Assembly (NCBI RefSeq): GCF_039555335.1
Contig: NC_092647.1
Location: 16,168,094 to 16,232,093, forward strand
Source: Amphiura filiformis
Taxonomy: Eukaryota; Echinodermata; Ophiuroidea; Amphilepidida; Amphiuridae
DNA length: 64,000 nt
Direction of reading: 5' to 3'
Below the pieces are notes generated by a model. That model was not told where the DNA came from. It ran no database searches and was given only the letters and a program-made list of their open reading frames with translations. Shown piece by piece: positions 6,387-43,157 of this stretch. The position numbers and the translations under genes were made by a program. Positions within the stretch are counted from its first letter, which is position 1. Each line of letters begins with the position of its first letter.

Positions 6387-6926
<540 letters not shown>

Positions 6927-7040
6927 TGCAGGGCGTTTCAACCAATGACAAGCCTTGATTGTGTCCGTTTGTCTGCAATACGCGTGCGCCACGCCGCTCA
7001 GCGGCAAGCGGCAGGGTAGTATGAAACCAGCATAAGGACA

Positions 7041-7640
7041 ATGAAACAATCAGGTTTTTTTAAATAGAACATTTTAGGCTTACATGAAACTTTAATAACC
7101 TGGAATCATGTAAATCTTTGGACCTTGCAACTGCTAAATTGTTGATCGGCTATGATTTAGCTATTGAAATAGCCTACTGAACAAAAAGACACAAAAAGCA
7201 TCACAATTATCTCATACCATTGAGGAGTTATGGCTTTTCAAGCTCAAAATTAGGCGAAAATTGCATTTTTCCCAAATAAATTGTCAACCTGACCCCAACT
7301 TTCTAACCCTGTTACGAAAAATAAGAAACAGATTTATCCCGTTTAATGATTTGAATATCACAAATCCTTGTCACATAATTAGCATAAACAATTAGGCTAT
7401 GCACTACTCAGTAGTTTTCATGTTCATAGGCCTACACTCAGCAAGTCAATTTTTTTTCACCCCAAAACGGCCATTTTCGGCCAAATTGGACCAAAAATTA
7501 ATTTTTCTCAAAATCAGTGAAAAATAAGGGATTTTAAGTGTCCAAAATCTGAAAATATGTGACATTTTACCCCTAGAAACATTTAAGTAATCAAGAATTT
7601 TGACTGTTTTCACCCCTAAATATTTTTTCACACGACACGC
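7041..7640. other. non-coding stretch
   Basis: AT-rich and no exon supported. The block 7445-7625 has many short CAAAA/CCCC motifs and may be the remains of an element next to the MITE cluster that follows. Confidence 0.35.
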
Positions 7641-22555: not shown

Positions 22556-22828
22556 TCATAAAATCACACACATTTTGGAATCCTTGACCGTATTTGTATC
22601 ACTTGTCCTGTTCTTTGTTGACGTAAGGTCAGATTGCTTACTATTGTCCGCACTTTGTACTGAGGTACTTTTCCCATCGCAATTTTCAGTACTATATTTC
22701 TTTGCATTGCCGTTGACAGTCACATTCTCATCAATAGAGGCTACATCATCTATATCACTTGATTCATCCACTCGAATGGTTGGCACTGGTTTGTGGAGCC
22801 ACGCAGTAATTTTGGAATGTTGTACCAT
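22556..22828 (-). CDS. ankyrin/CaaX gene, exon 10 (polar tail, CaaX, stop)
   Basis: The acceptor is ttctttctag|ATG, giving 90 codons plus TGA. The tail is rich in Ser, Thr, Asn, Asp and Lys, probably disordered, and ends K-M-C-V-I-L-stop. Cys at -4, two aliphatic residues and Leu at the end fit the CaaX rule for geranylgeranyltransferase I. The frame matches the phase-0 end of exon 9. Confidence 0.7.
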   Translation of the reverse strand: MVQHSKITAWLHKPVPTIRVDESSDIDDVASIDENVTVNGNAKKYSTENCDGKSTSVQSADNSKQSDLTSTKNRTSDTNTVKDSKMCVIL

Positions 22829-24587
22829 CTAGAAAGAAGAGCATAAAATTACTTTTAAAACGTGAAAGAAAAAAAACATTCAATACATTGTATTCTGCGT
22901 AATCCAAGCATTTATTTGGATGAATGAATGAATGAATGAATGAATGAATGAATGAATGAATGAATGAATGAATGAATGGAAAAAGTACACTGTAAAGTTG
23001 AATTATTATTTATTTTTGTGTGTTTATTATATCTGGGTTTTTTTTAAATAGTAAATAGCTGTATTGTCGTGACAGATTATGTTTTAATGCGATTCCGTAT
23101 AAAGTACAGTGTGCACTGCAGTTACGGCAACTGTCACAGTAGTAATTTTAACGGTAGATTATTGGCAACCTAGTTGCCAGGTATTTTATACCGTAAAACA
23201 TACGTGCTTTCTACCGTATTTATACAGGATTGTGGGTATTTTACCGTACATTTACGGCAATATACCGTGAAATACTTGTAAAATCGTCGTTTTTACGGTA
23301 GAATGCTGGCAACTTAGTTGTCAGGTACTCTACCGTAAAAATTACGGTCAAATTTTCACAGTGTATGTAAACAGATAATAAATAAATAAATAGATAACAT
23401 ATATTCATAGTTAGACTACCTTTTGAATAGAGTGCTTAATCCCAAGAAGGGAGAGCGTATAAAAATTCAAAGTTTAGACCTTCCAGAATAGAGGTCGTTA
23501 CTCTGAGTTTCACGCCTAAAGGCGATCATCAGACGACACGGTGGAGAAAATTTGGCTGGACAAGTAGACTATGCCATAGTCGAATTTTATTAAAAATATG
23601 TTATTATTAGTCATGATGAACCCATTTCGTTGAACTCAAAATTATACTGATGTTTATTAAAATTAAAGTATTCAATAGTAAAATGGTCATAAAGAGTTAA
23701 AAATATCAGACGATTAGTGACAATAAAAGTAATTGAATGCAACATTATCTTACATAATTATAACGGCTCACTTTTATACTGAACAATTCTGATTTTGGAA
23801 TCTACCAGTTTATTGATAGCGAACCCCGAAATTGGGAAGCTAACAAACAGAGGGAGTAGGGTGACTGATCAGATGTGAAAATCTATCAATTGTGCACACA
23901 TTAATTAAATCAGAGTTTTAAGCTTAAATACAATATCCAGAGTATGCACAATGGGCAAGTCCCGGGGGGCAAGTGGACTACGGGGTAGTCTACTGGACAA
24001 GTGGACAACCATCTCCTTAGAATGGAAGAATTTACATTCCATGGTGTCAACAGCCAAACTATTCCAGAGCCGGCCTGAACTATCATAGATAGAGAGTGCT
24101 CAACTGCAATTACTGCATAACAGGAGTGTAATAACAACATAATATACTCGAGTTTCAAAGTTTAGACCTTCCAGAATAGAAGCCCGGAATAGAAGTTGTT
24201 ACTCTGAATTTCACGCCTAAAGGCGATCGTCAGACAACATGGTGGAGAAAATATGGCTGGACAACCATCTCCTTGGAATGGAAGAATCTACTATTCAAAA
24301 GGTAGTCTAACTATGAATATATGTTGTTATCACGCTCCTGCTATCATAGATAGTCAGAGAGTGCTCAACTGCATAATGCAGTTGAGTACTCTCTGTCTGA
24401 CTATCTATGATAGTACATGTACAGGCATACTCTGGAATAGTTTGGCTGTTGACACCATGGAATGTAAATTCTTCCATTCCAAGGAGATGGTAGTCCAGCG
24501 AAATTTTCTTCACCGTGTCGTCTGACGGTCGCCATTAGGCGTGAAACTCAGAGTAACGACTTCTATTCTGGAAGGCTAAACTTTGAA

Positions 24588-24626
<39 letters not shown>

Positions 24627-27600
24627 AAAGAATAATTATAGCTTACTTCATTAGGAACGTTTGAAGAGGTGACGATGTCAGCTGCATCACCCTGAAAAAT
24701 AGCACAAGAATGAATTTTAAAATTAACTTGCTTCCGACAAGGCCGTCCTTTGGCAATAAACTGTCTGCACTTCTTATGCGTGCATATATGCTCCATTATA
24801 GGGTTAGGCATTTTAGAGAGATCAAACAAAACTGTTTGTTCGCCGATGCTTGTTGAAGTTAATCTGACTGAGTCCACAAATCATCAGCGACCACAACAAA
24901 TTTGAAAATGACACGATATATAATTTTTAATGGACTCGAAATTACTGAACATGAAAGACTTCGTGAAACCTGACTACTAGCTTGTGCTTCATACAAACAA
25001 TGCTTGTTGTCAACAACATAATGATCGCCCTTCACCTGTTATTTTCCAAAAACTCAAAGGTTTCAGTGACGCACACACGTGCATATAGGTCTTCATTACC
25101 AAGGATGTTGAAATATTTCGTCGCTCGGATGACATATCGGCGACTCGGCGTATCAGCCATTTTTTGACAAATTAATAGTTAAAGGAGTATTTCGTGATCC
25201 TAGCATCCTCTTTTAGGAAACGTTTCAGTAGCTATCCACGAAAAAGGCTTATTCCCAAAATTTCAATTGATTCTGATTTTGCGTTTGCGAGTTATGCATG
25301 ATTATGTGTATTACAGTGCTCCATATGCCACTGTGGTAATTTCGTTTTGGTGTACCAGAACAAAATTCAAATTTGACGATATTTTTGCTATACGAATTAA
25401 TCTGCAAGAAATGTTTGGTACATAAACATTATATAGGCAGAGGATTCCAGTGGCATAAAAATCTCAACTTTTTTTGAGAAAAGTGGGGGGGATGAGGTTG
25501 TGGATCACGAAATGCCCTTTTAAGTTTCATAATCTATGTGTTACGTTCTACATTTTGATAAACTTTCAAGACACGCATGTTATTAATTAATTACGTTTGG
25601 CGTATCCCACCAAATGGGAAAATTCTATGCAACATCCCCTCATGTTTTGGACGACATAGCGGCGTATTAGTCACATACGTCACTATGTCGTAAATATGTG
25701 ACATACGCCACTATTTCGGTATATCACAACTGTGTGGCTAATACGGATATGAATTCAACAATTGCTCGACAAACTCACGTATCACATGTCTTATGTAAAT
25801 TTTGAATGGAGAATTATTTTTTGAAAAGTTTGACAAAAAATTTGACGAAAAGTTTGATGACTAATTACAATTACCGGTAATTGGTGAATGACGTCAATGT
25901 ATTTTATACATAAAAATTAATGTAACTTAAATATCTATTTTTTTCATATCCATTCAACAAATGGGGGCATTTTAATCAAGGTAGACAAACGGGTAAAAGT
26001 TGCAAAACTTTCAAATGCGATTATCTCAAAATGGTCATTTTCGTGATACGCCACTATGTCATCCGACCGACGAATTATTGATGAGATTCATCATGATCGT
26101 TCAAAGTCAATTAATCATACTGCAGTTACTATTCAGTTTCCTAAACACAATACACAGTGCTCTCATCATTGAGGTGTGACCTCTACAAACAGTGTATGTT
26201 AGAGGTATAGGGCATTTCCTAGTTAACGTCACTGTGTGAAAAATAACCGGCCAATATTTATTGTACTCTCTGAAATTCTAGGAAATATAGTTTTGCAATA
26301 TGTCCTAAATTTTTAGCTAATTGAGATATTTGAAAATATTCGCACTATGGTATTTTATCAAGTAGGGCACGGCATGGCCTGCAAAATTCCCTGTGAAAAT
26401 CGAATGCAACTTTTAGTGATTATCACTCACTTGTAGACCGCTCTCTTCCGAAGCTTAAGGGCATTAAAGCTAAACCACTTGACGGATATTTATGTACTTG
26501 ATGTCAATCAAGAATAGTGTATACATTACATGTAGGCTAAAAACTGAGTATGTGGGGCATCTGCAAATGTTCGTACCTCCCTGATATGTAAATGACAGGT
26601 AACAGCAAAAACAGCTCCCATATCTGTCCATAACTTTGGTCAGTGCAGCGAGTCAGGGGATTTCAAGTGGGTGATTATTGATTGGCAGTGCAAGTGCAGT
26701 CCACCATTCAATATGGAGGATAGACTAAGTTCGAGTGAGAACTTACTTAATTGAGGTTGAAATAAATATGGAGAGTCAACAAATTACGTAACGCATTGTT
26801 CCTATATCATTCGTGCCATTGATTTGCCATCAGGCTATTCAAAAAAGTGGTACCATTGTTTCGAACAAAAGGGTTCCTCCATTAAATGGTAACTGACCCG
26901 GCAGAATATTAATGCTTTACTTGGAAGGGGACTGTCAATATAAGTGATGAATAGAAATTAGAAAGTTATGTGTAAGCGCACCACTTGACAAAGTGGTACC
27001 ATTGTTCTCACGTATCCCAAAGGTGTGTTGGTGTGGGTCTCGAACCTATAAAGCCGGCTTAAACTATCCGTGTACACTTCTTTATTGCCCATCTGACTTT
27101 AGACGTTTCATTTAAATAAACTGAATGGACTTGCCACCCTACAAAAAGACGCCCAACCCCCCACTTGCTCATAGAGGGGGCAACAATTAAACACGCTCCA
27201 CATTCACTAAAACATGTCACATTATTCGTCAAGACCTAAGGATTACAAAAATGTAACATATTTGCGCGAAGGACATAAAGTTACCAAGTGAGGCTCAATT
27301 TTCATCTTATACATTTTCGTAAAAATAGATGGAAACTGTTCCTAAAGTTCAAGGGATTCAGGAAAAGAATAGTTTGTACTATCTGCAATGTCAAGTTCAG
27401 AAGATAGATGATAAATAAATGCAAATTCCATTAAATTTTATGCAAACCTATATATCTTTTGACTCTTTGCTGTGTAACATATTAAACTATAGGCATATCA
27501 GATAGTGTAAACTATTCTTTTTCTGAATCCTCTAGCTACTAGGTAGGCGAACAATTTGTCTCAACATTTACGAAAATTGGAGCAAATTTGACTTTTGACT

Positions 27601-30600
27601 CAGACACAACAAGCAAATCGTGACTCCGTGGGACCACACGTTTGACATGTTTGAAAATGTTTTTGGAATGAAATTAATTTTTGCCCCCTATATGATCCTA
27701 CGTGGTCAGTTGGGGGTCCTTTTGAAGGTCACGGTCTCAAAATTTTGCTTGGCAGACAGCAGATTCGAGTTCAGCATTTTCAAATTGATGAAATTAATAA
27801 AAAGAAGCTGGTTGCCAACTTTTACGCAAACTTGCTGCTAGGAACGCGATTTTCGCAAATAGAACCGGTCTAATATGAGAGTGAAGAGACTCGAAATTTT
27901 GCAGTTCAATGCATAACTTAAGGGATCTAGAATGAGCGTTTATGGCGTTTCGACAGTATTTTTTGTGGGACATGCGAACACCTCAGACGTATCAAATTGC
28001 ATTCTGAATACGAAGCATGTCTTTCTGATATCAAATAATTTTCATTTTATGAAATTCACGATATAATACAAATTTTATGACAAAGTATTAAAATTAGATA
28101 TTTTCACATTTTGAGATATAACAGTCCTCGAAGTAAATTTTATAAATTTAATGATATAGTCTTAAAGTGTATGTAGCTGGGAGGAAAAAGCCGACGATCA
28201 ATTGAAAATTTTGACCTTTCATATTGAAGATATGGATTTTTTCCCAAAAGGACCTAATTTTTTTTGGTGTTTTGGGGAAAAAATCCATATCTTCAATACG
28301 AAAGGTCAAAATTTTCAATTGATCGTCGGCTTTTCATCCCACCTACATACACTTTTAGGTAGAAATCATCAGATTTATAAAGTTTACTTCAAGTACTGTT
28401 AAATATCAAAAATATCAATTTTTAATGACTTGCCATAAAATGTGTATTACATTGCGAATTTCAAAAAATCTAAATTATTTGATATCAGAAGGCCATTCTT
28501 CGTATTCAGAATGCAATTCGATATGTCTGAATGTGCTCTAATGTCCCACAATAAATACTGTCCAAACGTTCATACCCCTTCCCTTAAACGAGAATGTTGG
28601 AAACAAAAAATAACAACGACTTTACCTTTGCGTTACGTAGCATAGCTTCAATTGAATCAACAATGTCTTTCATTCCAGCTTTGGGTGATTCTTTGTGTCT
28701 TATATGTGCTATTGATAATGCGGAGACTTCAAAGATTTTGTTGTTTTCTTCGTTGAAATTCTAAAAAATCAAACAGAATGTGATAAAAAATTTAGTCCAA
28801 TTAGCAAAGCATTGAACATATTAACCTGAAAGCAAAATGACGTGTTTATTGTCACACATAAGAAGTGTGTGTCAAACTATTAAATAAACATCTAAAAAAA
28901 AAAAACTAACCCCCTTAAATAATGGTCATTATTCAAAAAACGGGTGATTGTATTACAAATCTGTAAAATGCGCTGGAAGCAGAATTTACTTCTGCACATT
29001 TTGACACCTCATTTGTAGAAATTGACTAAATATTGACGTCACAGCGTAAATTTAAATCAATGAAACCCAAGATTTGAAAGTTGCAATTGATTTGTATTCA
29101 GTATAATGGAATTGGAAGGGAATCTGTGTAATGATATCTGAGTGTTTTTGTATCAATGTGATGTAAGTGCAACTTTTAAATCTGGACCTCACTACATTAA
29201 ATTGACCGGTGTTTTATTGTTTTCTGGACTATCGTATCAAATGAGGTGTCAAAATACGCAGAAATAAATTTTGCTTCCAACGCATTTTACAGATTTGTAA
29301 TACAATAGTCCGTTTTTGAGTAATGACCATTATTTAAGGGGGTTAGTTACTTTTTTGAGATGTTTATAATAAATGGATAATATGTCTATGTTTACCTTTT
29401 TCACAATACTAAGATCTATTTCAAAAAGGTTAAGTAGTAGGACTTATCTATTATCATGATTATGCCCAACTTAAAAGTGATTACCGACAGATTGACCAAA
29501 AAAGCTCAAAAACACGTAGAGACTGGTTCTATTTGTCAGTTATTCCACAAGGAATTAGTCCCATTTACAAGAAACAAGAAGGCATAGGCCTATGTCATAA
29601 TGTGAACTCTCAGACATGCATGCAGTAAAAGTGCCGTAACTTTTGTAATTATTCACGCAAGACATATAAATTATACATGTTGCTCAAAAAATGAGTAAAA
29701 AAATTGCATAGTCTAGTCCTTTATTTCAATGAAAAGAAACACACAACATGCCTTCCATAGTTATACTAACCAAATTGAGATATCGTGGGTAAAAAGCAGA
29801 AAAACCAAAAAAAAAAAAAAAAAAAACAAAACAGAACAGAACAATTTGGAGTAATGAATTAAAGAGTTGACAGGAGATTCATGAGATTAGGGGTTAATGT
29901 TTTCTGCTCTTTCAGTGTACATGTTCTCATCGTTGATGGTTTGGTGGACTGCCATGTAACACGGATGCAAGTATGATCCTAACAATGCCTTTCACATTGA
30001 CCAAAACTAAGACCTCTTCTACATTGAAGCTGGCTTTCCCTTTTAAAGGGAAGAATTTTTATTTAATTCCGTCTTTAATTATACACTTCATTTGAGTCCT
30101 CGACAAATTTGATACAAATAATTTTGCACAGATGTTTGCCCAAAATATTTTACAATAACATTTTAAAAACGTATTCATGATCTTTAAATAACCCAACATT
30201 TAAATGTTATTAAATCGTTTTAAATAAACGTTTTAAGAACTTGTGTGTTTGCTGGGTAATCATCGATAATGTAAATTCAATAAAAAAGACGTCTATGCCT
30301 ACTTACTTGGAAAACTGTGCCCACTTTTGCACCTCGGTTGATGAGAAATTTTGCGATATGTTTGTGCCATTGCGCTATAGCAGCAATCAGAATGGATGCT
30401 TGGTTGCCGACGTCGTCCTGTAATTAAATGAAATGCACCGAAAACAAACTATAACAATTGCTATGAATAAATTAATATTTTATATGTCAAACCCTTTATG
30501 GGGGGTAACTGCCCTCTCTAACCATGCTAACAATCGATACCCTATTCGACTCGTAGGCGTTAAGTTTTCTTTAGGTTCAATCAAACAAATTCAGAACCTG

Positions 30601-33600
30601 TAAACAATATTGAACTGCTTCCTTTCAGTCCGGGCTTTCAGTCTTTTATTCGACCTCCCATCCATTCTTATAAACCATTATCTCCCATAAAGAAAATGCA
30701 TTATCAACATTTATCATGCACAAATATAATCATGAAATATGTTATAGTCATAGCCTATAAATTATATTGGATTTCCCTTTGACAGAGAATTCGTTCGAGT
30801 AAATATACATTTAAAAAATGTATTGAAATAAAACAATATTGTTCTTCACGCTGTAATTATGTGCATCACCGTCAAAGTTAGGTAGACCGAACAGACTCAT
30901 TTTAATCAAAATTTGTCGGAACGTAACAGAAATTGACGTATTGGTCAACTGAATGATATTTCAATATGGGAAATATTTTGCGCCATTTATAATAGAGTTA
31001 TAATGAAATGTTACGTTTGGACTGGGGTTCCGGGGGGGCACTCACTAAAAATGGGTGACGGGGATGTGCGGTCACATTGACCCCCACTTTTCAAGTCCCT
31101 CTCACCCAATGACCCCCTTTTTTGTTTTACTGAACTCCCTCTCACCCAATTACCCTCTTTTTTTGTTTTCCTGTCACTAAAAGACCCTCTATTTTTCCAA
31201 ATTTTGGGAAATTTTCTAATAATTTCTCACTGAATGACCCTGTTTTTTCATTATTTTTCTTCAAATTTTTCAAAAATATTTCAAATTTTACAAAACATTT
31301 TCAAATTTGTCAAAATATATGAAAATTTTGTATCAACTTTTATATTTTGACCCAAAATTTTTCCCAGTCTCACTAAATGACCCCCTTTCTTGGTAAAATT
31401 TCCCCCAGTCTCACGGAAAGACCCCCTTTAAGACCCCCCTTTTTTCGGTGTCTAGGCTCTCACCGAAAGACCCCTAGTTTCGAACTACTGTCCGTCACTT
31501 ACAAAGTCGAGTGTCCCCCCGCGAGAAGTACCTACCTGTTGAATCGTGTTGACATCTACTCCATGGTTAATAAGAAGCTCAACAGAAAATAAATCGCCTT
31601 CTTCAATTGCATCAATAATAAACTGGAAAAAAAAAGACAAAAATTACTATAATAAAGTAGCTTACCATAACGTCGTAGCAGAAAAAACTAAACGATGTCG
31701 AAAGACTTCATTTTTCATTAAAATTTAAAAAAATATAAATAATATTTAGGCTAATCCTTCATACTGACAGTAGTAATTTTTTTTTCACTTATATATACTT
31801 CTTGGTCTTCCCGTTGGTCTTAAATCACTTTTATTCTTGGTGTGTGTTGATGGGGGAGTGCAGTGAGGAACGACAAAATAACAATTTGGTATAACTATGA
31901 TATCAATCACCATATGTCAGAGCTGATCTAACGTTGCCATGCAGTGTTCGCTCCCACTTAGCTAGTTGTAAAGTGTGCTGAGGCTTGTGGTAGATCAACG
32001 TCTAGGCATTGTGCCTGTGCATATCACACTATAAATCACTGCGCTTTAAAAAAAATAGTAGTAGGCCTATATAAAAGACTCGAAAAGTGATGATAAATGA
32101 ATTGACGATATTGTTAGTCAAATTTTTAATAATCCATGCAAAACGATCCACTCATTTTTGAATAGAAACTTGTTAAATTCGACAATGGAAAGTATTTAGA
32201 TGAGGACATAATATATTTCTCTTCAAAATGAATCGGATATTCTCATCAAAATGACAAGAAACTCATCAAATTTGATTAAGATTGCCTTGTTATTTAAAAA
32301 TTGAATAGCTTCTTGTCAAAAATGACACAACATATCATAATTAGTAGGTCTGTCTTGCAGGGGCGTAGCCAGCTTTCTTGGTCAGGGGGGGCAAAATAAA
32401 ATTTTTAGGGCACAGACGAAAAAAAATTGCAGTTGCATCATACAATACATAGAGACTGTATGTCTTCGAGCTTCCCGAAAAGGGCCTTATTGGGATGATG
32501 TGCGCGCGTAGCGCGCAAAAAATGGTATTTTACACTATTTTCGCCCATTATCCGGCTAAAAAATTGCTTGATTGTTACAATGTGCGAGCGCAGCGCGGAA
32601 ATTTTTTGTATTTTACACAATTTTGACCCTGAATTTTGCTAGAAAAGGGGCTCCTTGCCCTTTTTCTTTTCCTTTGCCCTCTTGATTTTCTCTTTCATTT
32701 TTTGTCAGAGGGGCACTTTTTCTTTCATTTTTTGTCAGGGGGGGCACTCTGCCCCCCCCTGCTGGCTACGCTACTGCTGTCTTGTCAAAAATGACCAAAC
32801 AAAATCAAATTTGATTCGTCTGTCTTGTCAGAGGGTAACTTAACAGAAAGTTGTTAAAATGGAATCAGTAATCTTGTCAAATAATGAGTGGGAGATCTTC
32901 TTAATTTAAATAGTATAATTGTTAAAATAAAACGGAAACTGTTAACTTTGATACAATTGTTGGTTCAAAGTGATAATATACCTAATCAAAATGAACAATC
33001 TCATAAAAACGAATAGTTCAAATTAAATGAGTAGCGGGGATTCTATTAAAAACAACGAATAATCTGAAATTAAAGTGTAGTTTTTTTTATCGTAATCGTT
33101 TACCAATAATTAAAAGGGCATTTCATGATCCATAGCCTCAACCCCCACTTTTTTTCAAAAAAGTTGAGATTTTTATATCACTGGAAACCTCCGGCTACAT
33201 AATGTTTATGCACAAAAAATTTCTTGCAGATCAATATTCGTTTAGCGATCAATATTCGTTTATTCGTTTAGATAGTCTTTAGGTATCGTGTTTGAATTTC
33301 GTTCTGGTATACCAGAACGAAATTACAAACTGCCTTTGGAGCAGTGTATACACATAATTGTGCATAACACGCAAATAAACGCAAAATCGGAATCAACTGA
33401 CATTTTGGGAATAAGCTTTTTCGTGGATATCTACTGAAAAATGTCATAAAAAGAGGATGCTAGGATCACGAAATACTCCTTTAAGTAAAAGTATGTGGTG
33501 AATTTGATGTCTGAATACGGACAATGAATAACCTACTCTCCCAATTATTCAGAGAAAACAAAAACAAATTAATGTAAGTGCCGCATTGTATCAAACACAC

Positions 33601-36600
33601 AGCTCTATACCCTGTGATTCTGTTCATGCCACAAGGCACCCCCGGGACTGGTAAGTCGACTTTCACTGTCTGAGACCCCAGACCCATGGTCTCTGCAGTG
33701 AAGCTCCATTTTTCGTTTTACAACATTAACTCATACCTTATTACAAAGCTCCTTATTGTAATCCATGATATAATCTAATGTTTGTATCGTTTCAAAAACA
33801 ACTTATGTTGACTTCGTTAATTTACAAAGACAATTTTCTGAGTTTCATATCCCGTCCTTTTTTATATATTTTTTAACCCAACATACAATTGTGAAGCCAC
33901 CGTCACCCGGGGGGCACTTCAATATGAAATGGATATAGGTGTAGGGCTGGCACTTTCGCACTAAGGGGCATTCGGTGAGAGCAAAATGCAAAAAATATGG
34001 GGTCATCATTGGGTGAGAGCGTGATTTTGACATTCGGTGAGAGCAAAATGTAAAAATATGGGGTCATTGGGTGAGAACATGACCTTTTTTTAAAATGGAA
34101 TCTTTGGGTGAGAGCCGAAACAGCACCACAGAAACCTCTAAAATCGAATTTCTAGTTCTAAATGGCTTCAAATATCTTTGTTTTTTCAAAATAAGTAACA
34201 AAATCTGTGGTAAATGAAAGTTGCTGTTCAAATTGAACTTGTAAGGGTCTTTGGGTGACAGATCAAATGGAAAAATAGGGGGTCTTTGGTGACAGAGCAT
34301 GTGTTCGTAAAAAAGTATGGAGTCTTTGGGTGACAGCGATGCTGAAAAAGGGGGTCTTAACAGCCCTTACATACGCGTCACCTCCAAAGTTGAGTGCCCC
34401 CCCCCGGCCGTCACCACGGCTATCAGTGTCATAAACCTTACTCTATAAACGCGTTGATTTAAAATTAAAATAATCTCTACCAAACTGAAATTTAATACAT
34501 TTTTTGATATACTAAAATAACACAACATACCAAGAAATTTATGTCTGATATTTATTCAGTGCTTCTATGATAAATGTCAAACGGATAGCATAATATTAGC
34601 CTAGTATATGAGTTCCATTACTTTCTGCAGTCTAATAATATATTTAGTTACCGAGAGTTAGGTAAATAAGCTTTCATTATTTTATTCGGCAGAATAAATT
34701 AAAACTGGAAAACAAAACAAAGAGCAGGAGAAAAAATCATGAAAAATTAAGGAAAATCGAAAACGATTCGGAAAAGAAAGAAAAAACCTCTGGTCGCACA
34801 ACCTGACGACGTACAAGAACACATTTTTTTCACATTCACACACAAACACGATAAGCAAGTATCAAAATGATATCAAATATATATAACCTGGGGAGATAAC
34901 ATGGATTACATTAACTCTTTCCACGCGAGTGTCGACTGCAGACGACAAGTTTCAAAATTTTTGTAAAAATTCAAAAATTTCCGAATTGTACATTTTCATG
35001 ACAATATTTGGAATCAGCATGAAAAATGCATTACAATGAGTACAAACAAGCCTTGTATTGGTTCAGTGGTTCTTATGATAGCTCTTGATATTTTGAGAAA
35101 ACTTGGGACTTTTTATATTGAAGCCTATGGCTATAGCATGCAGAGCATGTTGAGAAACATTTCATTTGAACAAACAAACAAATACATACGAATAAACATA
35201 ATTACCTGCGACGGAATATCATTTGGTAAGTTCCTCGGTGGTACACATTTAGGTTCTCTTCCCTAACCGAATAAGAAAAATTTACATAAAATTTACATAA
35301 TTAGAGTAAAAATAACCATGTACATACATAGATAAACAATAAATTGATGCAATTCTAGAGAGAAGTCTCTAAACATTTGCTATTAATTGTGGTTAATATG
35401 GATTAAATTGTTATCGATGTTTTTTTACAATAGTAATCAAGGTAACAATAACTTAACAAAAATACACGAAAAAACATAAATCCCTCTTCTCTCTCTCCCC
35501 CCCCCCCTCTCTCTCTCTCTAACACACACACCCCACCCCACCCACACCCCGGTGTATGGGGTGTGTGCATGGTGTGTATATATAACTAGTTTTTTTTTCT
35601 AAATCGTTAAATATTATGTTTGTATCTGTAGTACCTACCTGACATGTCTTCAAGACCTTTTCGATGCTGCACAGTACTTCGCCGAGATTGTTGTCCAGCG
35701 ATACTTCATATAACATTCTTGCCGTTGTTTCGGCCGTGATTTCGTAAATACATTGGTTTTGTTTATCATAATTCTGGTTAGATGAAAGGAACATTAATGC
35801 AGATGATTAGTTGGTTAAGCAACATTTATGGGCATACTACTAAACATCTCAAAAAAAAGTAACTAACCCCCTTAAATAATGGCCATTATTCAAAACGGGG
35901 CTATTGTATTACAAATCTGTAAAATGCGTTGGAAGCAGAATTTATATCTGCGCATTTTGACACCTCATTTGATACGATAGCCCAGAAAACAATAAAACAC
36001 CGGTCAATTTAATGTAGTGAGGTCCAGATTTGAAAGTTGCACTTACATACCAATTTTTACAATTTTTATAATTTTTACAACTAAGCTTATACCTATATTT
36101 ACAGAATGATACGATATGGTAGGCATATCATTTTTGCGACAACGATATTAGTTTAGTGTGCGACTATATCGACACAATTATTCTCTAGGCCTACATCATT
36201 TACACATGCCTATCCAAAATTTATTAGCCGGCAACTAAGATTATAGATACTCACCAAAAATAAGGTATCTACCCTGGCGCCTTTTTCCAGCAGTAGTTTT
36301 GCAATAGAAAATTGGTTCTTTGAAATTGCATGAATAAGAATGGAATGCTGACTCTCTGTTTCCTCATTCTGTGGATAGGATAAAAAGGGGGTAAAAAGAC
36401 TTCAGGATAAAATGGTCTTAATGGTACATAAAATGTACCGCACACATACACTTAAACGAACTCATGCTTTTTCATACTGAATAATTCGAGTATAAATTAT
36501 CCAGATCCAGAATATCTTACCAAGTGCGAAAACCTACTCCCTTGATCAACATTAATAGCAATTATGTCAACATACATTATTGTGGTTTGTTCAATATGAA

Positions 36601-39600
36601 GTAATAGTATCGAGAGTACTGAGAGCTGGATAAACAACAAGATATATCGAAGTCGAAGATGGGCCCTGTTTTTAAGGAAATGCGATCGAAACGCGGGCAA
36701 AAAAAAATGTTTACACCAAATGCGTCCAAAATACACTTTGTTTGAAATGGGCTAACTTGGTGTCCTCTGTCGACTCTTAGTTAAGTTAGATGAACCCATC
36801 ATGCCCGTGAGAATGTCTACCGCACAGTGTCATCGACCCTATATCTTCATGGCAGGAATAGCCATGGTAGGTTGAATCCACAGCCACGATTAGCCATTTG
36901 GTTCAAACCTTTAAAGCTCTTTAGAACTAATAATTAGTCGAGGGACATAACTAAGGCTACTCACAATACCGGGTAATTGATCTTGGTTGTGCGTGAATAA
37001 GCTTGTATCCCCATTGAGGTCAATGGTCATCGACTTTTATACTGCCTACAGTGAGTGCAGCTGTACTACACGCTGTAGTCTATAGGCCTACAGGGTATTA
37101 CATACAGGACCAACGCAATATAAAATGGTCAGATTATGAGTTCAAAGCGCACGGCCAATTTTCAAAGCGCATTCTAGCGACTATCATATCTGTTCAACAC
37201 GTATTTTCAGGTGTATGAGACCACATCTGGTTTCTTGAGAAAAATTCATTTGCGGGAGATATTCATCAATTTCTAACCCAGTATTCGAAGATTTTCGTCT
37301 GATATCAAAATCGTACATAGCAATTCACGTGTATCGATCCCGTGTATTCATTTTAGTGTCCCTGCTCCACCAAATAATTATTAGCCAGGCGGTGTCGGTG
37401 TGTACCGTGTGCATGGTATGGATGGCGGATACCTTCAGAATACGCGTAAGATAATACCCTTAACCTTACACGCCTAAGATGAAATCTTAGACGTTTAAGA
37501 TTTTATCTTAGGCGTGTAAGGTTAGGTGCATACGCAGTGTATTATGCGTATTTTGAAGGTATCCGCCATCCATACCACCGTTCGTTTGCATCTCCTCTTT
37601 GTAGGCGGGTTGGTAGGGCTGTATTTTATCAGATGAACTGAGTTTTATTAATAACCAATTAAATGCTTTAAATATATTAACAATTAACTCAACATTTAAA
37701 CTTACAACGTCCACCATGTCCACGTTGTCTCCGTTGGCAATTAGTGTGTTAACTGTTTTGATATCCCCACGCTCGATGGCGACCTTCATTGCCTAATGGA
37801 CGAACAAAAGGAACAATTCAATTGTTCAGTTATGGATAATAATAGTTATCAATTGTTTCTCTCTGAATATAACCTAAATGACATTTAAAGAATTGATGGG
37901 AATTAAGATTATAGTCGATAGCTAGCTACCCCTGCATGGTTGTAATTTAATATAATTTCTATATACATTTCAAGACTACGTAAAGTGTAGTTTAATGACT
38001 CGTATTGTGCTTTTCTATTTCTTGTTTTTCAAGATTGATGTTTTATGCTACATATACATGTCTTCAAATTCAAACATATTAATTATGTTCGAATTTGAAG
38101 ACTGTTGACTCTGTTCCTGTTTCTATTTCTTTTTTTATTTCTTTTTCTTTTCTTTCGCCCTCCTTCGTTTCTCCTCCACCTCTTCTTCTTCTTCCTTTTT
38201 CCTCCTTACCTTTTTCATTATTTTTCAAAATGTCCATGTTTTGCAGAAATAAGTTTTCAAGTTTATACCAGACTGACAGAGTTACCATGACACTAGTGAT
38301 ATGAAACCCAAATTCTGGAAAAACTACATTGCTTGTACCGTTGTATACATTTTCTTTGATTTAAACCTTGAATTAACTACAGTGAATGTTTTTTAATGCC
38401 GAGCTCAGAGACAAGCCAGTGTATTCCACACTTGGGATGTGTATTCCCACGCATAACATTCAACACTGAAGGACAAGTCGGCATTGACAAGTGATTTGAC
38501 TTTAATGCCTCTGTCACACATCGCCTGATCAGCCCTACGTCCAGCAAACACAAAACGTTTTTAACGGGTTATATTTTAGATTTTGGTTTTAGTACAAACG
38601 TTTTAATAACATTAAATGTCGGGTTATTTAAAGGTAATGAAAACGTTTCAAACGATATTATACCCTTTATATAATCCGACATTAAACGTTTTCTGACAAC
38701 CTTTCATAACCTTTTGCGAATGATGTTGAAAACGTTTTGTGTTTACTGGGGTACAAGCATTAATTTGTATGTCTTGCTATCATCTGCCACATGCGTTTCG
38801 TGTTAGGTGATGTTCGTTAAAGAGTAGCACATCTGGATTTATTCATAAAATGTTATACAAGCTCAACATTAATGGCAAAACATAATCCATAATAAAAATT
38901 GAAGGGTCCAATTAACTCACCACGGTCCTGACCAGTGTAAAAGAACATTGTAATATGTAAGGACAAGGTTACCTGCCCAAATCCTAGTATAAACATTCAG
39001 AAATTGCTGGTATTTAATTACCATGGTTACTGCACAAACCTGGCCATTGGCCTGGCCAACAATGTTAGACCTTTAAGTCCGTCGGCAAGTTTTGTGCATT
39101 CCCAAAACTTGAAACGGAGTGTGCCGAATAGGGCCTACATATAGACGAATCCAGCGAGCCAAGTGATGATCAGATTCAATTCGGCCATTAATGGGTTCCT
39201 CTGCACCGTGGACGGATTCACTCATTCACCGGAAATTATTTTGGTTACTTGCCGGATGTTGACGAATACATATCAGACATCTAGGACGCTTGCATGACTA
39301 TTACCGACTACAACGCATAGAGAAACGAACGGAATTCGGACGAAATGTTTGATGCAAATAATTTCCTGTGAGGACCTGTTGTTACGGCTGTAGACTACCC
39401 CGTAGTCCACTTGCCCATTGTGCATACTCTGGATATTGTATTTAAGCTTAAAACTCTGATTTAATTAATGTGTACACAATTGATAGATTTTCACATCTGA
39501 TCAGTCACCCTACTCCCTCTGTTTGTTAGCTTCCCAAGTGGACTACTGACATTGCCTTGCGGTTAAGATTTTTAACACGGGACTCTATGGAGAGTTAGGC

Positions 39601-41502
39601 CAATTTCTGGCCTAACTAAAATTGGCCATGATGTAATGCATCTTTAAATGGATCTGCCTTGTGATTGGTCGCCCATACCTCGCTATGGTTTAAATCGTCT
39701 GGGCCCGCGCCATTACCATTAACTACACCGTAAACAACTGTCTGTGGTATTTGCGGCGCTTTTGTGTTGACGCGAAAGTTAAACTCTCATCAAACATCTA
39801 GCGCGTACTTGTGGTTAATGGACTGATAAACAAGTATGCTTGACAGTGTGTTTTTAGAGAGCAAAGTCCAGGGGGTAAAGTTCTGCTTACAATTCAAAGT
39901 TCATAGTCGAAATTTCGGGGTTCGCTATAAATAAACTGGTAGATTCCAAAATCAGAATTGTTCAGTATTAAAGTGAGCCGTTATAATTATGCAAGATAAT
40001 GTTGCATTCAATTACTTTTATTGCCACTAATCGTCTGATATTTTTAACTCTTTATGACCATTTTACTATTGAATACTTTAATTTTAATAAACATCAGTAT
40101 AATTTTGAGTTCAATGAAATGGGTTCATCATGACTAATAATAACATATTTTTAATAAAATTCTACTATGGCATAGTCTATTACGGCTGCAGATGTTTGTT
40201 TCTTGACCACAGTTAGTGTGTAATGACCAGGTTCACAAAAGTAATACGACTGAAGGTCAAGAGTTCTTGGTTTCAATTTAATAATGATTGATCTCTCTTT
40301 CTATATCTTTCCTTTAATATTAATTGATGGTTATTATTAATTATCATTAAGACACTATATTTTTTCTACCCTTCCATTCTGGTTTCTTACAAATCCATCC
40401 CAAAATACAGTGGCGTAACTAGGGTTGGTAGCGCCCGGGGCAAGAAACAAAATTGGCGTCCCTACCGCCCCCACCCCACGGCGAGAATATCTTAGATGCC
40501 CCCTCCCCTATTCTTGAAACAATTGCGCGCGGAGCGAGCGAAATATTGGACAAATAAGACCTACCAATAATTAATTTTGGTTACTAGAAGTTGAATACTG
40601 CCTTGTTCTTTCAATTGATTTTATGCTGAAAAATTTTGACTTTCATTGCTTGGAGGGGCACCGTATCGATGCTAAATTGGTCACTTTGGCGCCCCCCCCC
40701 CCTAATGGTGGCGTCCGGGGCATGTTGCCTCCCTCTGCCCCCCCTCGTAGTTACGCCACTGCCAAAATCTTCTGCTGGACTGGTGATTTCGCCAGCGAAT
40801 AAAATATTTTTGTATACGGCAATATACGTTGACGCAGCGCAGTCCGTTTTTGTGTGACAGAGGCATTACGCTTACATTATGCAATCTACGTCCGTACCAC
40901 TGTGTCTATGTTCCGTACAAACACAAAACACTACCAATAACAGGAAGTTCAACTCGAACTCAAATACTGGCATATATTGCACCTGTTACAACGATTTTAA
41001 TAAGCACCCGTTATTATTAAGGGATAGGGTATGAACATTTGGACAGTATTTATTGTTATATTTATAACAATTGTAATTTGTTGTTTTTACGGGATAACAG
41101 GAAAATTTGCTGCCAATGGGTTCCCCGTACTTTTACGGGGACCAGTAAAATTACGGAAATTTACTTCCATGTCAGTGCCCGCTTTCATGTGTTTAAGCAG
41201 AATTAAATGGGAGTTTATAGTGAATGATACACATGGGTCTGTAGTATTACATGTAGATGTGTGGGTGGGTGTGGATGTAGATAGGTGGTTCTAATCACAA
41301 AAGGGTGTTTTGATTTATACGGCTGGTTTCCGTAAAATTACGGTTAATTTCGAAATACGGGCGTCGCCATTTTTTACAGTGTGCACTCCGCCCCACACCC
41401 CATGACTACACGTATTTACACTAGATAACCTACCTTAGAAACACGAGGTGGTGCGTGGTTCAAATCCATTTTATTGTTATTTATGTCTGCAAGGAGAACC
41501 AT
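22556..41502 (-). CDS. ankyrin-repeat protein with duplicated four-exon module and C-terminal CaaX box (ten-exon model)
   Basis: The model has exons of 69, 87, 114, 135, 57, 87, 111, 135, 45 and 273 nt (371 codons with stop). All begin after AG, end before GT and are phase 0. Exons 2-3 and 6-7 encode ankyrin-like helical pairs (IERGDIKTVNTLIANGDNVD; AKLLLEKGARVD; IEEGDLFSVELLINHGVDVN; AKFLINRGAKV). Exons 4 and 8 are each exactly 45 codons and end in a similar helix (SIEKVL / SIEAML). Exon 10 is a polar tail ending CVIL-stop, a CaaX prenylation signature. Ankyrin repeats bind proteins, and CaaX-Leu ends are usually geranylgeranylated, so a membrane-tethered scaffold is my inference. I do not recognise a named ortholog. 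Exons may be missing, notably near 33.7 kb. Confidence 0.72.
22919..22979. repeat. (GAAT)n microsatellite
   Basis: About 15 perfect units in the last intron of the ankyrin/CaaX gene. Confidence 0.97.
22985..23368. mobile_element. inverted-repeat element rich in TTTTACGGTA
   Basis: It begins GTACACTGTAAAG and ends TTTTCACAGTGTATG. The interior has several TACCGTA/TACGGTA palindromes and the paired blocks GGCAACCTAGTTGCCAGGTA and GGCAACTTAGTTGTCAGGTA. A related sequence lies at about 41085-41390. It is non-coding. Confidence 0.55.
23395..24590. repeat. cluster of direct and inverted copies of one repeat, with a 34-bp-arm hairpin
   Basis: The block AGTTTAGACCTTCCAGAATA followed by TTACTCTGAGTTTCACGCCT is present at about 23470 and 24157 in one orientation and at 24540-24585 in the other. 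ACAACCATCTCCTTGGAATG occurs at 24005, 24260 and, inverted, near 24475. At 24341-24413 CTATCATAGATAGTCAGAGA forms an almost perfect hairpin. All of this sits in the intron between exons 9 and 10. Confidence 0.8.
23565..23992. repeat. left copy of a distant inverted duplication (family H)
   Basis: This block is the near-exact reverse complement of 39393-39540 plus 39897-40183. Shared landmarks include GGTAGATTCCAAAATCAGA and CCGTTATAATTATG (as complements), and CAATATCCAGAGTATGCACA with GGGCAAGT. Both copies lie in introns of the same gene, about 16 kb apart. Confidence 0.85.
24585..24628. repeat. (AAAT)n microsatellite next to exon 9
   Basis: About 11 AAAT units ending 18 bases from the donor of exon 9. 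Confidence 0.97.
24647..24691 (-). CDS. ankyrin/CaaX gene, exon 9 (linker, module 2)
   Basis: The acceptor is gctatttttcag|GGT and the donor GAA|gtaagc. It has 15 codons, GDAADIVTSSNVPNE. The same frame is open upstream without a stop to an ATG at 24877, so a longer or alternative first exon here cannot be excluded. Confidence 0.6.
25179..25523. mobile_element. MITE family B, complete copy with TTAA at both ends
   Basis: TTAAAGGAGTATTTCGTGAT opens it and GATCACGAAATGCCCTTTTAA closes it. The length is 345 bp. The inner palindrome GGTGTACCAG is flanked by TTTCGTTTT. It is intronic (between exons 8 and 9) and non-coding. Confidence 0.9.
26118..26470 (+). repeat. interspersed repeat family D, copy 3
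   Basis: This is similar to 9850-10225 over ACTGCAGTTACT, ACAATACACAGTGCTCTCA, CTAGTTAACGTCACTGTGTG and AAAAATAACCGGCCAATATT. It diverges towards its right end. Confidence 0.75.
26471..27917. other. intronic stretch
   Basis: No exon is supported between exons 8 and 9 here. An inverted repeat pairs GGATTCAGGAAAAGAATAGT (near 27355) with ACTATTCTTTTTCTGAATCC (near 27508). The open frame at 27620-27841 has no recognised content. Confidence 0.45.
27918..28587. mobile_element. MITE family A, complete copy with TTAA at both ends
   Basis: TTAAGGGATCTAGAATGAGC at the left and ACCCCTTCCCTTAA at the right. The central hairpin (28189-28333) pairs CCGACGATCAATTGAAAATT with its complement. The length is 670 bp. 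It ends 39 bp from the exon 8 splice donor. Confidence 0.88.
28626..28760 (-). CDS. ankyrin/CaaX gene, exon 8 (45-codon helical block, module 2)
   Basis: The acceptor is attttttag|AAT and the donor AAG|gtaaag. It has 45 codons as in exon 4, and MKDIVDSIEAMLRNAK parallels LGEVLCSIEKVLKTCQ. A TTAA-flanked MITE starts 39 bases past the donor. Confidence 0.75.
28886..29366. mobile_element. foldback MITE family F, complete copy
   Basis: The left end ACTAACCCCCTTAAATAATG pairs with the right end CATTATTTAAGGGGGTTAGT. Complementarity extends through TACAAATCTGTAAAATGCG on both sides and into TTTGACACCTCATTTG. It is about 480 bp, intronic (exons 7-8). A half-copy lies at 35847-36055. Confidence 0.88.
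29367..30111. other. intronic stretch between exons 7 and 8
   Basis: Bases 29606-29690 are the reverse complement of about 59120-59195 (CAGACATGCATG...GTAAAAGTGCC), an interspersed repeat shared with POFUT2 intron 1. A poly-A run lies at 29809-29826. No exon seen. Confidence 0.5.
30112..30256. mobile_element. MITE family E, partial copy
   Basis: It ends TTGTGTGTTTGCTGGGTAA and has an ATAACCCAACATTTAAATG interior, like the copies at 16561 and 38541. Confidence 0.6.
30307..30417 (-). CDS. ankyrin/CaaX gene, exon 7 (ankyrin-like repeat, module 2)
   Basis: The acceptor is aattacag|GAC and the donor CAA|gtaagt. It has 37 codons, one fewer than its counterpart exon 3. SILIAAIAQWHKHIAKFLIN then RGAKV is ankyrin-like. 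Confidence 0.8.
30426..31028. other. intronic stretch between exons 6 and 7
   Basis: AT-rich. No repeat or exon recognised. Confidence 0.35.
31029..31521. mobile_element. GGGGGGCACTC-ended element ending 14 bp from the exon 6 donor
   Basis: It opens CCGGGGGGGCACTCAC and closes GAGTGTCCCCCCG. The interior is built from repeated CTCACCCAATGACCC and CTCACTAAATGACCC units. Same terminal type as 33908-34407 and 63634-63953, but I see no clean target duplication for this copy. Confidence 0.7.
31536..31622 (-). CDS. ankyrin/CaaX gene, exon 6 (ankyrin-like repeat, module 2)
   Basis: The acceptor has a long polypyrimidine tract (ctttttttttccag|TTT) and the donor is CAG|gtaggt. It has 29 codons, and IEEGDLFSVELLINHGVDVN is a textbook ankyrin helix pair and loop. 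A G/C-run transposon begins only 14 bases past the donor. Confidence 0.85.
31623..31974. other. intronic stretch upstream of exon 6
   Basis: No repeat or exon recognised except the polypyrimidine tract of the exon 6 acceptor (on the minus strand). Confidence 0.35.
31975..32060 (+). repeat. probable SINE 3' end
   Basis: GAGGCTTGTGG-TAGATCAACGTCTAGGC, then TTGTGCCTG and CACTATAAATCACTGCGCTT with a short A-run, matches 60626-60693 in POFUT2 intron 1. A shared 3' module ending in an A-run suits a short retroposon. No tRNA-like promoter box was identified with confidence. Confidence 0.55.
32061..32357. other. intronic stretch with recurring TTGTCAAAAATGAC motifs
   Basis: Loose repeats of CTTGTCAAAAATGAC and ATCAAATTTGAT occur here and resume after the element at 32358-32776 (up to about 33050). 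This marks an older repeat array interrupted by that insertion. Confidence 0.5.
32358..32776. mobile_element. 'GGCGTAGCCAG'-ended element
   Basis: CAGGGGCGTAGCCAGC at the left and GCTGGCTACGCTACTG at the right, with inner runs of G and C. The GCGCGTAGCGCGC and GAGCGCAGCGCG motifs inside are typical of this group in marine invertebrate genomes (from general knowledge). It is non-coding. Confidence 0.7.
33110..33484. mobile_element. MITE family B, complete copy with TTAA at both ends
   Basis: TTAAAAGGGCATTTCATGAT at the left and GATCACGAAATACTCCTTTAA at the right. The inner palindrome TCTGGTATACCAGA is flanked by TTTCGT/ACGAAA. A small duplication of GATCAATATTCGTTTA occurs at about 33230-33262. 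Confidence 0.9.
33729..33793 (-). CDS. candidate extra exon of the ankyrin/CaaX gene
   Basis: On the minus strand an open stretch reading FETIQTLDYIMDYNKELCNK ends at a good donor (AAG|gtatga). It would join in frame to exon 6 (FIIDAIEEG...). Its possible acceptors (CATAAG or ACATTAG) give a phase-1 start, while exon 5 ends in phase 0, so a further exon would be needed. It is left out of the main model. Confidence 0.25.
33908..34407. mobile_element. GGGGGGCACTT-ended element with an 8-bp target duplication
   Basis: The direct repeat CCGTCACC at 33900-33907 and 34408-34415 brackets a 500-bp element that starts CGGGGGGCAC and ends GTGCCCCCCCCCGG. The interior repeats GGGTGAGAGC / GGGTGACAG units. 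Eight-base duplications are typical of hAT transposition, and the class is an inference. Confidence 0.75.
34416..34914. other. intronic stretch between exons 5 and 6
   Basis: AT-rich. No exon or repeat recognised. Confidence 0.35.
34915..35160. repeat. interspersed repeat family G ('GTGTCGACTGCAGACGAC')
   Basis: It begins CTTTCCACGCGAGTGTCGAC and continues through CATTTTCATGACAATATTTG and GAATCAGCATGAAAAATGCA. It is the reverse complement of 46318-46510. Non-coding. Confidence 0.75.
35206..35262 (-). CDS. ankyrin/CaaX gene, exon 5 (linker, module 1)
   Basis: The acceptor is cggttag|GGA and the donor CAG|gtaatt. It has 19 codons, GREPKCVPPRNLPNDIPSQ. Exon 9 (15 codons, ...SSNVPNE) occupies the same place in module 2, and both carry N-(L/V)-P-N-(D/E). 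Short exons are easy to miscall, and the shared position and phase are the main support. Confidence 0.6.
35480..35530. repeat. (CT)n / C-run / (CA)n simple sequence
   Basis: Low-complexity pyrimidine tract in intron 4 of the ankyrin/CaaX gene, followed by CACACCCCACCCC. Confidence 0.93.
35639..35773 (-). CDS. ankyrin/CaaX gene, exon 4 (45-codon helical block, module 1)
   Basis: The acceptor is taaccag|AAT and the donor CAG|gtaggt. It has 45 codons, exactly the length of exon 8, and both start with Asn-aromatic (NYD / NFN) and end with SIE-(K/A)-(V/M)-L. It is predicted to be helical. It is not a canonical ankyrin repeat and I recognise no named domain. Confidence 0.72.
35847..36055. mobile_element. 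MITE family F, half copy
   Basis: CTAACCCCCTTAAATAATGG through TTGACACCTCATTTGATACG and CACCGGTCAATTTAATGTAG to GAAAGTTGCACTTACA. It matches one arm of 28886-29366. Confidence 0.8.
36255..36368 (-). CDS. ankyrin/CaaX gene, exon 3 (ankyrin-like repeat, module 1)
   Basis: The acceptor is ccacag|AAT and the donor TTG|gtgagt. It has 38 codons. HSILIHAISKNQFSIAKLLL then EKGARVD is a clear ankyrin-type helix pair and loop. It corresponds to exon 7 (SILIAAIAQ..HIAKFLINRGAKV). Confidence 0.8.
36780..37340. repeat. interspersed repeat family I, copy 1
   Basis: Bases 36815-36885 (ACAGTGTCATCG, TATCTTCATGGC, CCATGGTAGGTTGAATC) and 37190-37340 (AGACCACATCTGGTTTC, TTCACGTGTATCGATCCC) occur as reverse complements in 45250-45775. 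Between exons 2 and 3. Confidence 0.65.
37440..37570. repeat. hairpin with arms of about 50 bp
   Basis: CCTTACACGCCTAAGATGAA pairs with the later TTTTATCTTAGGCGTGTAAGG, and CCATGGATGGCGGATACCTTC-type flanks pair with GAAGGTATCCGCCATCCATA. It ends about 135 bp from exon 2. Confidence 0.8.
37706..37792 (-). CDS. ankyrin/CaaX gene, exon 2 (ankyrin-like repeat, module 1)
   Basis: The acceptor is ccattag|GCA and the donor GTT|gtaagt. It has 29 codons, the same as exon 6. The motif ERGDIKTVNTLIANGDNVDM matches the helix 1, helix 2 and Gly-Asp/Ala-x-Val-Asp loop of an ankyrin repeat. The usual TALH start of the repeat is absent. Confidence 0.75.
37793..38540. other. intron 1 stretch
   Basis: A pyrimidine-rich tract (TTTCTTTTTCTTTTC) at about 38120-38215 gives spurious frames on both strands. 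There is a short inverted repeat GTCTTCAAATTC/GAATTTGAAGAC at 38060-38102. No exon seen. Confidence 0.45.
38541..38751. mobile_element. MITE family E, complete copy
   Basis: CCAGCAAACACAAAACGTTT at the left and AAACGTTTTGTGTTTACTGGG at the right, about 210 bp, with ACATTAAATGTCGGGTTAT and ATAATCCGACATTAAACG as inner complementary blocks. Confidence 0.85.
38752..39392. other. intron 1 stretch
   Basis: Nothing recognisable apart from short similarity of ATAGACGAATCCAGCGAGCC (near 39141) to 21993-22012, which suggests a shared repeat. Confidence 0.35.
39393..40183. repeat. right copy of inverted duplication (family H) interrupted by about 356 bp
   Basis: 39393-39540 and 39897-40183 together are the reverse complement of 23565-23992. 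The intervening block at 39541-39896 is absent from the left copy, whose corresponding point is the GAAATT-GGGAAGC junction near 23838. The block was either inserted here or deleted there. Confidence 0.82.
40408..40761. mobile_element. 'CAGTGGCGTAACTA'-ended element
   Basis: CAGTGGCGTAACTAGGG and CGTAGTTACGCCACTG are inverted ends, with inner GGCGCCCCCC/GGCGTCCGGGG runs. The length is 354 bp. Intron 1 of the ankyrin/CaaX gene. Confidence 0.8.
40762..41433. other. intron 1 stretch next to exon 1
   Basis: Contains a short family A terminus (AAGGGATAGGGTATGAACAT at 41020) and a TTTTACGGG/TTTACAGTGTG remnant (41085-41385) related to 22985-23368. No exon. Confidence 0.5.
41434..41502 (-). CDS. 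ankyrin/CaaX gene, exon 1 (start codon exon)
   Basis: The ATG at 41502-41500 opens 23 codons (MVLLADINNNKMDL...PRVSK) ending AAG|gtaggt. It is the first in-frame ATG after an in-frame TAG 15 codons upstream. That TAG sits in a TTACCTAG context that could itself be a splice acceptor, so an upstream 5' exon and a different start remain possible. Confidence 0.6.
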
Positions 41503-42422: not shown

Positions 42423-43157
42423 TATTGAATTAAACATAAAACTGATCAACTGGACTCACATTTATTTGAGAGGCTACAGTATCGCACCTAATCCAAGGTG
42501 CATCTTCAGGCCGTCTGATGATCTGGCGGCAAAAGGTCGTTGACCTGTGACAAGGTGGTGTTGCCAGAGGTCGTGGATCTTGAGTTGAACTTCTTAGGAA
42601 TGTTCTTGATGACAGAATTGTAAGCCCCCGCCAAGTTATGACGAAGACCGCCTCCCCTGTTTAGTGAAGGTTGTTCTTTCTTGACGTAAATTGCTTCTTT
42701 GACGCCCCTTTCAAACCACCTGCGTTCTCTGTCTAAAATCACAACATCTTGGTTGTCAAAAGTGTGATGTGTACTGTCCAAATGCGTGAACACGGCTGAA
42801 TCCCCGCAACCAGTACTAGCACGTCTATGCTGGTACATGCGTTTGGATAATGTCTGTTTGGTTTCACCTATGTACAAGTCCTGGCAATCAGGAGCCTTGC
42901 ATTGTATTGCATAAACTAAATTGCTTTGCTTGTCCTTGGGCGGCTTGTCTTTGGGATGAACCAAATTCTGTCAAGAACATTCCTAAGAAGTTCAACTCAA
43001 GATCCACGACCTCTGGCAACACCACCTTGTCACAGGTCAACGACCTTTTGCCGCCAGATCATCAGACGGCCTGAAGATGCACCTTGGATTAGGTGCGATA
43101 CTGTAGCCTCTCAAATAAATGTGAGTCCAGTTGATCAGTTTTATGTTTAATTCAATA
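42423..43157. mobile_element. Penelope-like element fragment with long inverted terminal segments
   Basis: Left arm 42423-42611 and right arm about 42966-43157 are almost identical reverse complements (start TATTGAATTAAACATAAAAC; end GTTTTATGTTTAATTCAATA). They differ by a 2-base gap near 42609. The single-copy centre encodes the GIY-YIG domain on the minus strand. Penelope elements are known for inverted or tandem partial copies of this kind. The insertion splits the AATTG minisatellite. Confidence 0.85.
42506..42964 (-). pseudogene. Penelope-like element GIY-YIG endonuclease domain, 5'-truncated
   Basis: The 152-residue frame starts inside the parent protein. VYAIQC (17-22) and LYIGET (30-35) are the GIY and YIG elements. 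SKRMYQH (40-46) carries the conserved Arg, RGVKEAIYVK holds the Glu, and SLNRGGG the Asn. The spaced cysteines C22 and C27 are typical of Penelope GIY-YIG domains. The domain nicks target DNA during retrotransposition. All key residues are present but the reverse transcriptase is missing, so this copy cannot act alone. Its start coincides with the inversion junction at about 42965, and the real initiation codon lay upstream in the complete element. Confidence 0.85.

Follow-up and report, generated by a model that had tools for sequence, protein, structure and literature searches.

The minus strand of a 64,000-nucleotide window from the brittle star (Ophiuroidea) Amphiura filiformis (RefSeq assembly GCF_039555335.1, contig NC_092647.1, positions 16,168,094 to 16,232,093) carries a ten-exon ankyrin-repeat gene that spans exactly positions 22556-41502 of the window. 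The gene is real but ordinary, and its product is an uncharacterized brittle-star protein. The reading that we favor, with moderate confidence, is that this protein of approximately 370 to 380 residues is a lipid-tethered adapter with six ankyrin repeats. Such a protein would comprise two half-solenoids of three repeats each, derived from the ancient tandem duplication of four exons, with a proline-rich NxPN linker between them. In each half, two recognizable repeats would be followed by a diverged third. After the body would come a disordered polar tail, approximately 90 residues long and ending in the sequence CVIL. Geranylgeranyltransferase I (GGTase I) would most likely lipidate the cysteine of CVIL. 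The protein would be a cytosolic adapter whose ankyrin surface is thereby kept at the membrane, where it could recruit a protein partner.

The exons were rebuilt from the DNA sequence and comprise 23, 29, 38, 45, 19, 29, 37, 45, 15 and 90 codons, which give 370 residues when the stop codon is excluded. GT-AG introns are present at 9/9 junctions, and the phase is 0 throughout. Exon 1 (41434-41502) supplies the start methionine and a 23-residue N-terminal segment. An in-frame stop codon lies upstream of this methionine with no additional methionine in between, and an ATTAAA sequence is located approximately 40 bases past the stop codon of the gene. A search of 5.8 billion proteins returned a sole near-identical record, "uncharacterized protein [Amphiura filiformis]", of 380 residues (P0001 hereafter). 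P0001 matches the model at each of its 370 residues, exon 1 included, and the two represent the same gene. The reading frame and exon structure thus agree with a database protein, and the exon model of the preliminary description holds in its exact coordinates, its junctions, its phase and its 370 residues; the echinoderm origin that it presumed is likewise correct.

Because P0001 consists of the complete 370-residue model with 10 residues added, the gene is already annotated in the brittle star. According to the published description (PMC11310086), the genome annotation combined assembled transcriptomes from 18 samples with protein similarity and ab initio gene prediction. The terms "ankyrin" and "prenyl" each have 0 occurrences in the main text of that paper, and a limited literature search with limited terms found no paper describing the gene by its title or the start of its abstract. 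The preliminary description had proposed the gene as the best candidate in the window for something undescribed, a proposal that loses force with the presence of the protein in public databases, where it has no assigned function.

The 10 additional residues of P0001, VIMFIRMYLF, are found at the junction of exons 5 and 6. They are encoded contiguously after exon 5 if this exon ends at 35176 (donor TTT|GTTTGT, an extension of 30 nucleotides) and not at 35206. On a simple matrix for donor sites, the nearer one at 35206 scores 7.8 and ranks 22 among 1096 GT sites, whereas the farther site at 35176 scores -3.1 and ranks 746. The longer exon 5 of P0001 would represent an alternative isoform or a mistake in the annotation. 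Either reads support the weak donor, or the record is wrong at this point. With the donor chosen in P0001, the exon (35176-35262, minus strand) ends in a hydrophobic decapeptide that separates the halves of the protein.

Four of the exons encode recognizable ankyrin repeats. The whole protein passes the Pfam cut-offs for Ank_2 (PF12796; E = 5.3e-14, 53 bits versus a cut-off of 27.3) and for Ank (PF00023; 38.2 bits versus 21.1). A profile derived from repeats in nine other ankyrin proteins places four repeats, all on the minus strand: A1 in exon 2 (37706-37792, 29 codons; z = 5.2), A2 in exon 3 (36255-36368, 38 codons; z = 9.0), B1 in exon 6 (31536-31622; z = 8.5) and B2 in exon 7 (30307-30417; z = 6.9). 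Pfam and the profile therefore bear out the ankyrin character assigned to these exons earlier. Other matches, from NCBIfam, are to models of bacterial ankyrin proteins and to two unrelated models, all far below their cut-offs (best, 33.1 bits versus 600), and are read as generic ankyrin similarity. The protein resembles generic ankyrin-repeat proteins (PF12796, PF00023) in its scores above the cut-offs and its four placed repeats. It differs from them in its third units, one per half, which are not recognized as repeats when tested alone.

Exons 2 to 5 and exons 6 to 9 are two copies of one module. Each exon of the first module (2-5) was compared with each exon of the second (6-9), and every one of the 16 scores was set against 500 shuffles. 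The position-matched pairs 2/6, 3/7, 4/8 and 5/9 gave z scores of 6.2, 9.3, 9.8 and 4.3, respectively, and for each pair 0/500 shuffles scored as high. The weakest pair consists of the linkers: exon 5 (35206-35262, 19 codons), which is rich in proline and carries the NxPN sequence, and exon 9 (24647-24691, 15 codons), in which this sequence is NVPN. For this pair, 1/1000 shuffles scored as high in a separate run. One of the 12 mismatched pairs, exons 3 and 6, reached a z score of 3.9 (0/500 shuffles as high; 2/1000 in a separate run), a resemblance between ordinary ankyrin repeats, and the remaining 11 had z scores of at most 1.2. As a within-module control, exon 2 versus exon 3 gave a z score of 3.2 and exon 6 versus exon 7 one of 5.1, as expected for repeats of one kind. 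Every repeat is nonetheless nearest its counterpart in the other module.

Identities for the four matched pairs, in the same order, are 10/29, 16/37, 11/45 and 5/15, and the identity over the module is 33%. The whole module scores 163, compared with a mean of -27.7 and a maximum of 25 among shuffles (0/2000 as high). Because neighboring repeats within a module are also alike, exons 5 and 9 alone would be insufficient proof, but the full pattern does prove duplication. We attribute it to an ancient event that copied a block of four exons in tandem, and not to repeats gained independently. The duplicated module noted in the preliminary description thus stands, with all four matched pairs far above the shuffles. 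No further copy of the module was detected in the window: apart from the ten exons and matches overlapping them, a tblastn search with an E limit of 50 yielded only matches with E of at least 7.1, none of which was accepted.

Both third units are 45-codon blocks, encoded by exon 4 (35639-35773) and exon 8 (28626-28760). We consider both blocks to be probable divergent third repeats, designated A3 and B3, and several results weigh against this assignment. The ankyrin profile gives z scores of only 0.8 for exon 4 and 0.6 for exon 8. Isolated pieces comprising exons 4-5 or exons 8-9 have no Pfam match, with E up to 10 allowed. An HH alignment of the module to 45 three-repeat stretches spans the first two repeats only and stops at module column 65. 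Residues 89-156 of P0001, used as a protein-search query, returned only P0001 itself (1/6 candidates). These observations would suit a separate helical domain that is not an ankyrin repeat and that alternates with ankyrin pairs, in which case the protein would be a scaffold of two modules that includes a lineage-specific domain. We regard this possibility as unlikely for the following reasons.

The exon 4/8 block occupies the position of a third repeat and is contained in one phase-0 exon, as are the other repeats. Two ankyrin-domain profiles, both below their curated cut-offs, extend past exon 3 into exon 4 (first residue, 91): ANK_LRRK2 covers residues 52-122 (E = 0.00012), and Ank_KRIT1 covers residues 22-105 (E = 0.0026). 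In an AlphaFold model that used a shallow, ankyrin-biased alignment, exon 8 forms a hairpin, with a predicted local distance difference test score (pLDDT) of 57-69, and two helices (pLDDT approximately 78) that continue the stack of the preceding repeats. The region of exons 6 to 8 in this model superposes on ankyrin chains over approximately 95 residues at 1.6 A. Exon 4 is modeled as helices at residues 104-115 and 120-134, with pLDDT block means of 34-47. A structure prediction made without an alignment had a mean pLDDT of 36 and was not used.

The model suggests that exon 8 is most likely a divergent third ankyrin repeat. Exon 4 is probably another, with less certainty than exon 8. The block had earlier been described as matching no recognizable domain, which remains correct for sequence comparison alone, and the idea that it is an undescribed domain is weakened by the ankyrin profiles at exon 4 and the model of exon 8. 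A HMMER-type check of the 370-residue protein is similarly divided, in that ankyrin is found above cut-off and the block alone falls in no Pfam family. The structure prediction is divided as well, with an ankyrin-like hairpin and two helices for exon 8 and helices at low pLDDT for exon 4. A more far-reaching proposal is that the block has no relation to ankyrin repeats and is a domain specific to this lineage, and that the duplicated unit of two ankyrin repeats, block and linker, together with a lipid anchor, represents a scaffold type specific to brittle stars; we find this distinctly improbable. An origin of the block from TRPC-like proteins, which was considered because of a resemblance, was dropped as unsupported. 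The TIGR00870 model matches only with E = 0.05 (11.6 bits versus a cut-off of 498.75), and this match covers residues 56-86, within a single ankyrin repeat; the isolated block has no Pfam family.

Exon 10 (22556-22828, including the stop codon) encodes a polar tail of 90 residues. The tail is 63% S/T/N/Q/D/E/K/R, has a net charge of -2 and lacks a Pfam match. It is predicted to be disordered, with pLDDT block means of 23-35 past residue 280 of P0001. The tail ends in CVIL (22559-22570), a strict CaaX box directly before the stop codon, as originally noted. Leu or Phe in the last position of a CaaX box is reported to direct modification by GGTase I (PMC12493179). CVIL conforms to the corresponding rule, Cys-aliphatic-aliphatic-Leu/Phe, and it terminates a tail whose predicted disorder is what an accessible substrate requires. 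We infer that the protein would be lipidated, located at membranes and active there as an adapter.

Alternatively, CVIL might be coincidental, and the protein might be a soluble ankyrin adapter. Of the 2181 segments in the window that end at a stop codon and span at least 20 codons, 6 have a strict CaaX-like ending, with CVIL included, and 11 have a looser one, such that a gene examined post hoc could have one by chance. Also, no orthologue was found against which the conservation of CVIL could be checked. Because only 6/2181 segments end likewise, a chance CVIL is possible but is not our first choice; given also the fit to the GGTase I rule and the disordered tail, we judge a soluble protein quite unlikely.

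The combination of ankyrin repeats with a prenylation signal was described as uncommon, a view that is weakened by known precedents. TIMAP (PPP1R16B) and MYPT3 (PPP1R16A) are described as having ankyrin repeats and a C-terminal CaaX box and as being prenylated for membrane association (PMC6737228). The brittle-star protein shares this overall plan, so it might be a diverged member of the PPP1R16 group, and thus a prenylated ankyrin subunit that targets protein phosphatase 1. However, TIMAP and MYPT3 have a docking motif for the catalytic subunit of protein phosphatase 1 (PP1c) and a MyPhoNE element. The 370 residues contain no match to the RVxF/KVxF docking motif, which is located upstream of the repeats in the MYPT family, and no match to a MyPhoNE-like pattern, a motif of which PMC6737228 quotes one example. 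In addition, no chain bears the name of a myosin phosphatase subunit among the 60 matches listed of 180, the 60 listed of 346 or the rows listed in two further capped sets of matches. Membership in the MYPT/TIMAP group was dropped for want of the docking motifs, and we hold it to be extremely doubtful. Given that the KVxF and MyPhoNE motifs are absent, the protein may be tethered in the same way yet lie outside the TIMAP/MYPT3 group. A further feature noted for the brittle-star protein is its four-exon internal duplication. Together, the precedents for the prenylated-ankyrin plan, the evidence on the block and the presence of the protein in databases weaken the claim that the gene is undescribed.

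The whole-protein search returned the A. filiformis record and seven further ankyrin proteins (8 rows among 2642 candidates, with E up to 0.01). Residues 165-300 of P0001, used as a query, returned P0001 and two generic ankyrin proteins (3/91 candidates). Relatives labeled P0002 to P0010, which are metagenomic or otherwise unnamed ankyrin proteins, have similarity at the level of ankyrin repeats, the best being P0009 with 27/69 residues, and the local alignments of P0009 track the repeat signatures. None of these nine proteins ends in a CaaX box, and all are longer (483-643 residues). No relative was found in another animal by protein searches that need exact matches of 5-residue words, and because of this requirement distant orthologues may be missed. 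Viral contigs also contained no relatives, an expected result for a search that detects close relatives only.

Several repeats were observed in and around the gene. Inverted repeat pairs of 269 nucleotides (98%) and 129 nucleotides (99%) are located at 23565-23960 and 39409-40179, in introns 9 and 1. The members of each pair are approximately 15 to 16 kb apart and so enclose exons 2 to 9; they are probably recent copies of mobile elements. Repeat copies related to each other, at 28885-29371 and 35838-36048 in introns 7 and 3, comprise a direct repeat of 131 nucleotides (79%) and an inverted repeat of 211 nucleotides (92%), and are perhaps small non-coding transposons. Beyond the gene, an open reading frame at 42506-42964 on the minus strand overlaps one arm (42423-42609) and reaches the other (42971-43157) of two perfectly complementary arms of 187 nucleotides. 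We take this reading frame to resemble the GIY-YIG endonuclease end of a Penelope-like element, and Pfam gives no family for it with E up to 0.1. A long simple-repeat array at 6615-7049 has open frames of repeated KERK-like units on one strand and of SFFL-like units on the other, and is unlikely to be a gene.

The gene opens no long-standing question, and its main worth lies in showing that an unrecognized block is probably a decayed repeat and in drawing attention to a questionable donor site for exon 5 in the public protein model. It is also a clean case of a four-exon tandem duplication that lengthened an ankyrin scaffold. Moreover, it provides a candidate lipid-anchored adapter that is testable in a regenerating animal.
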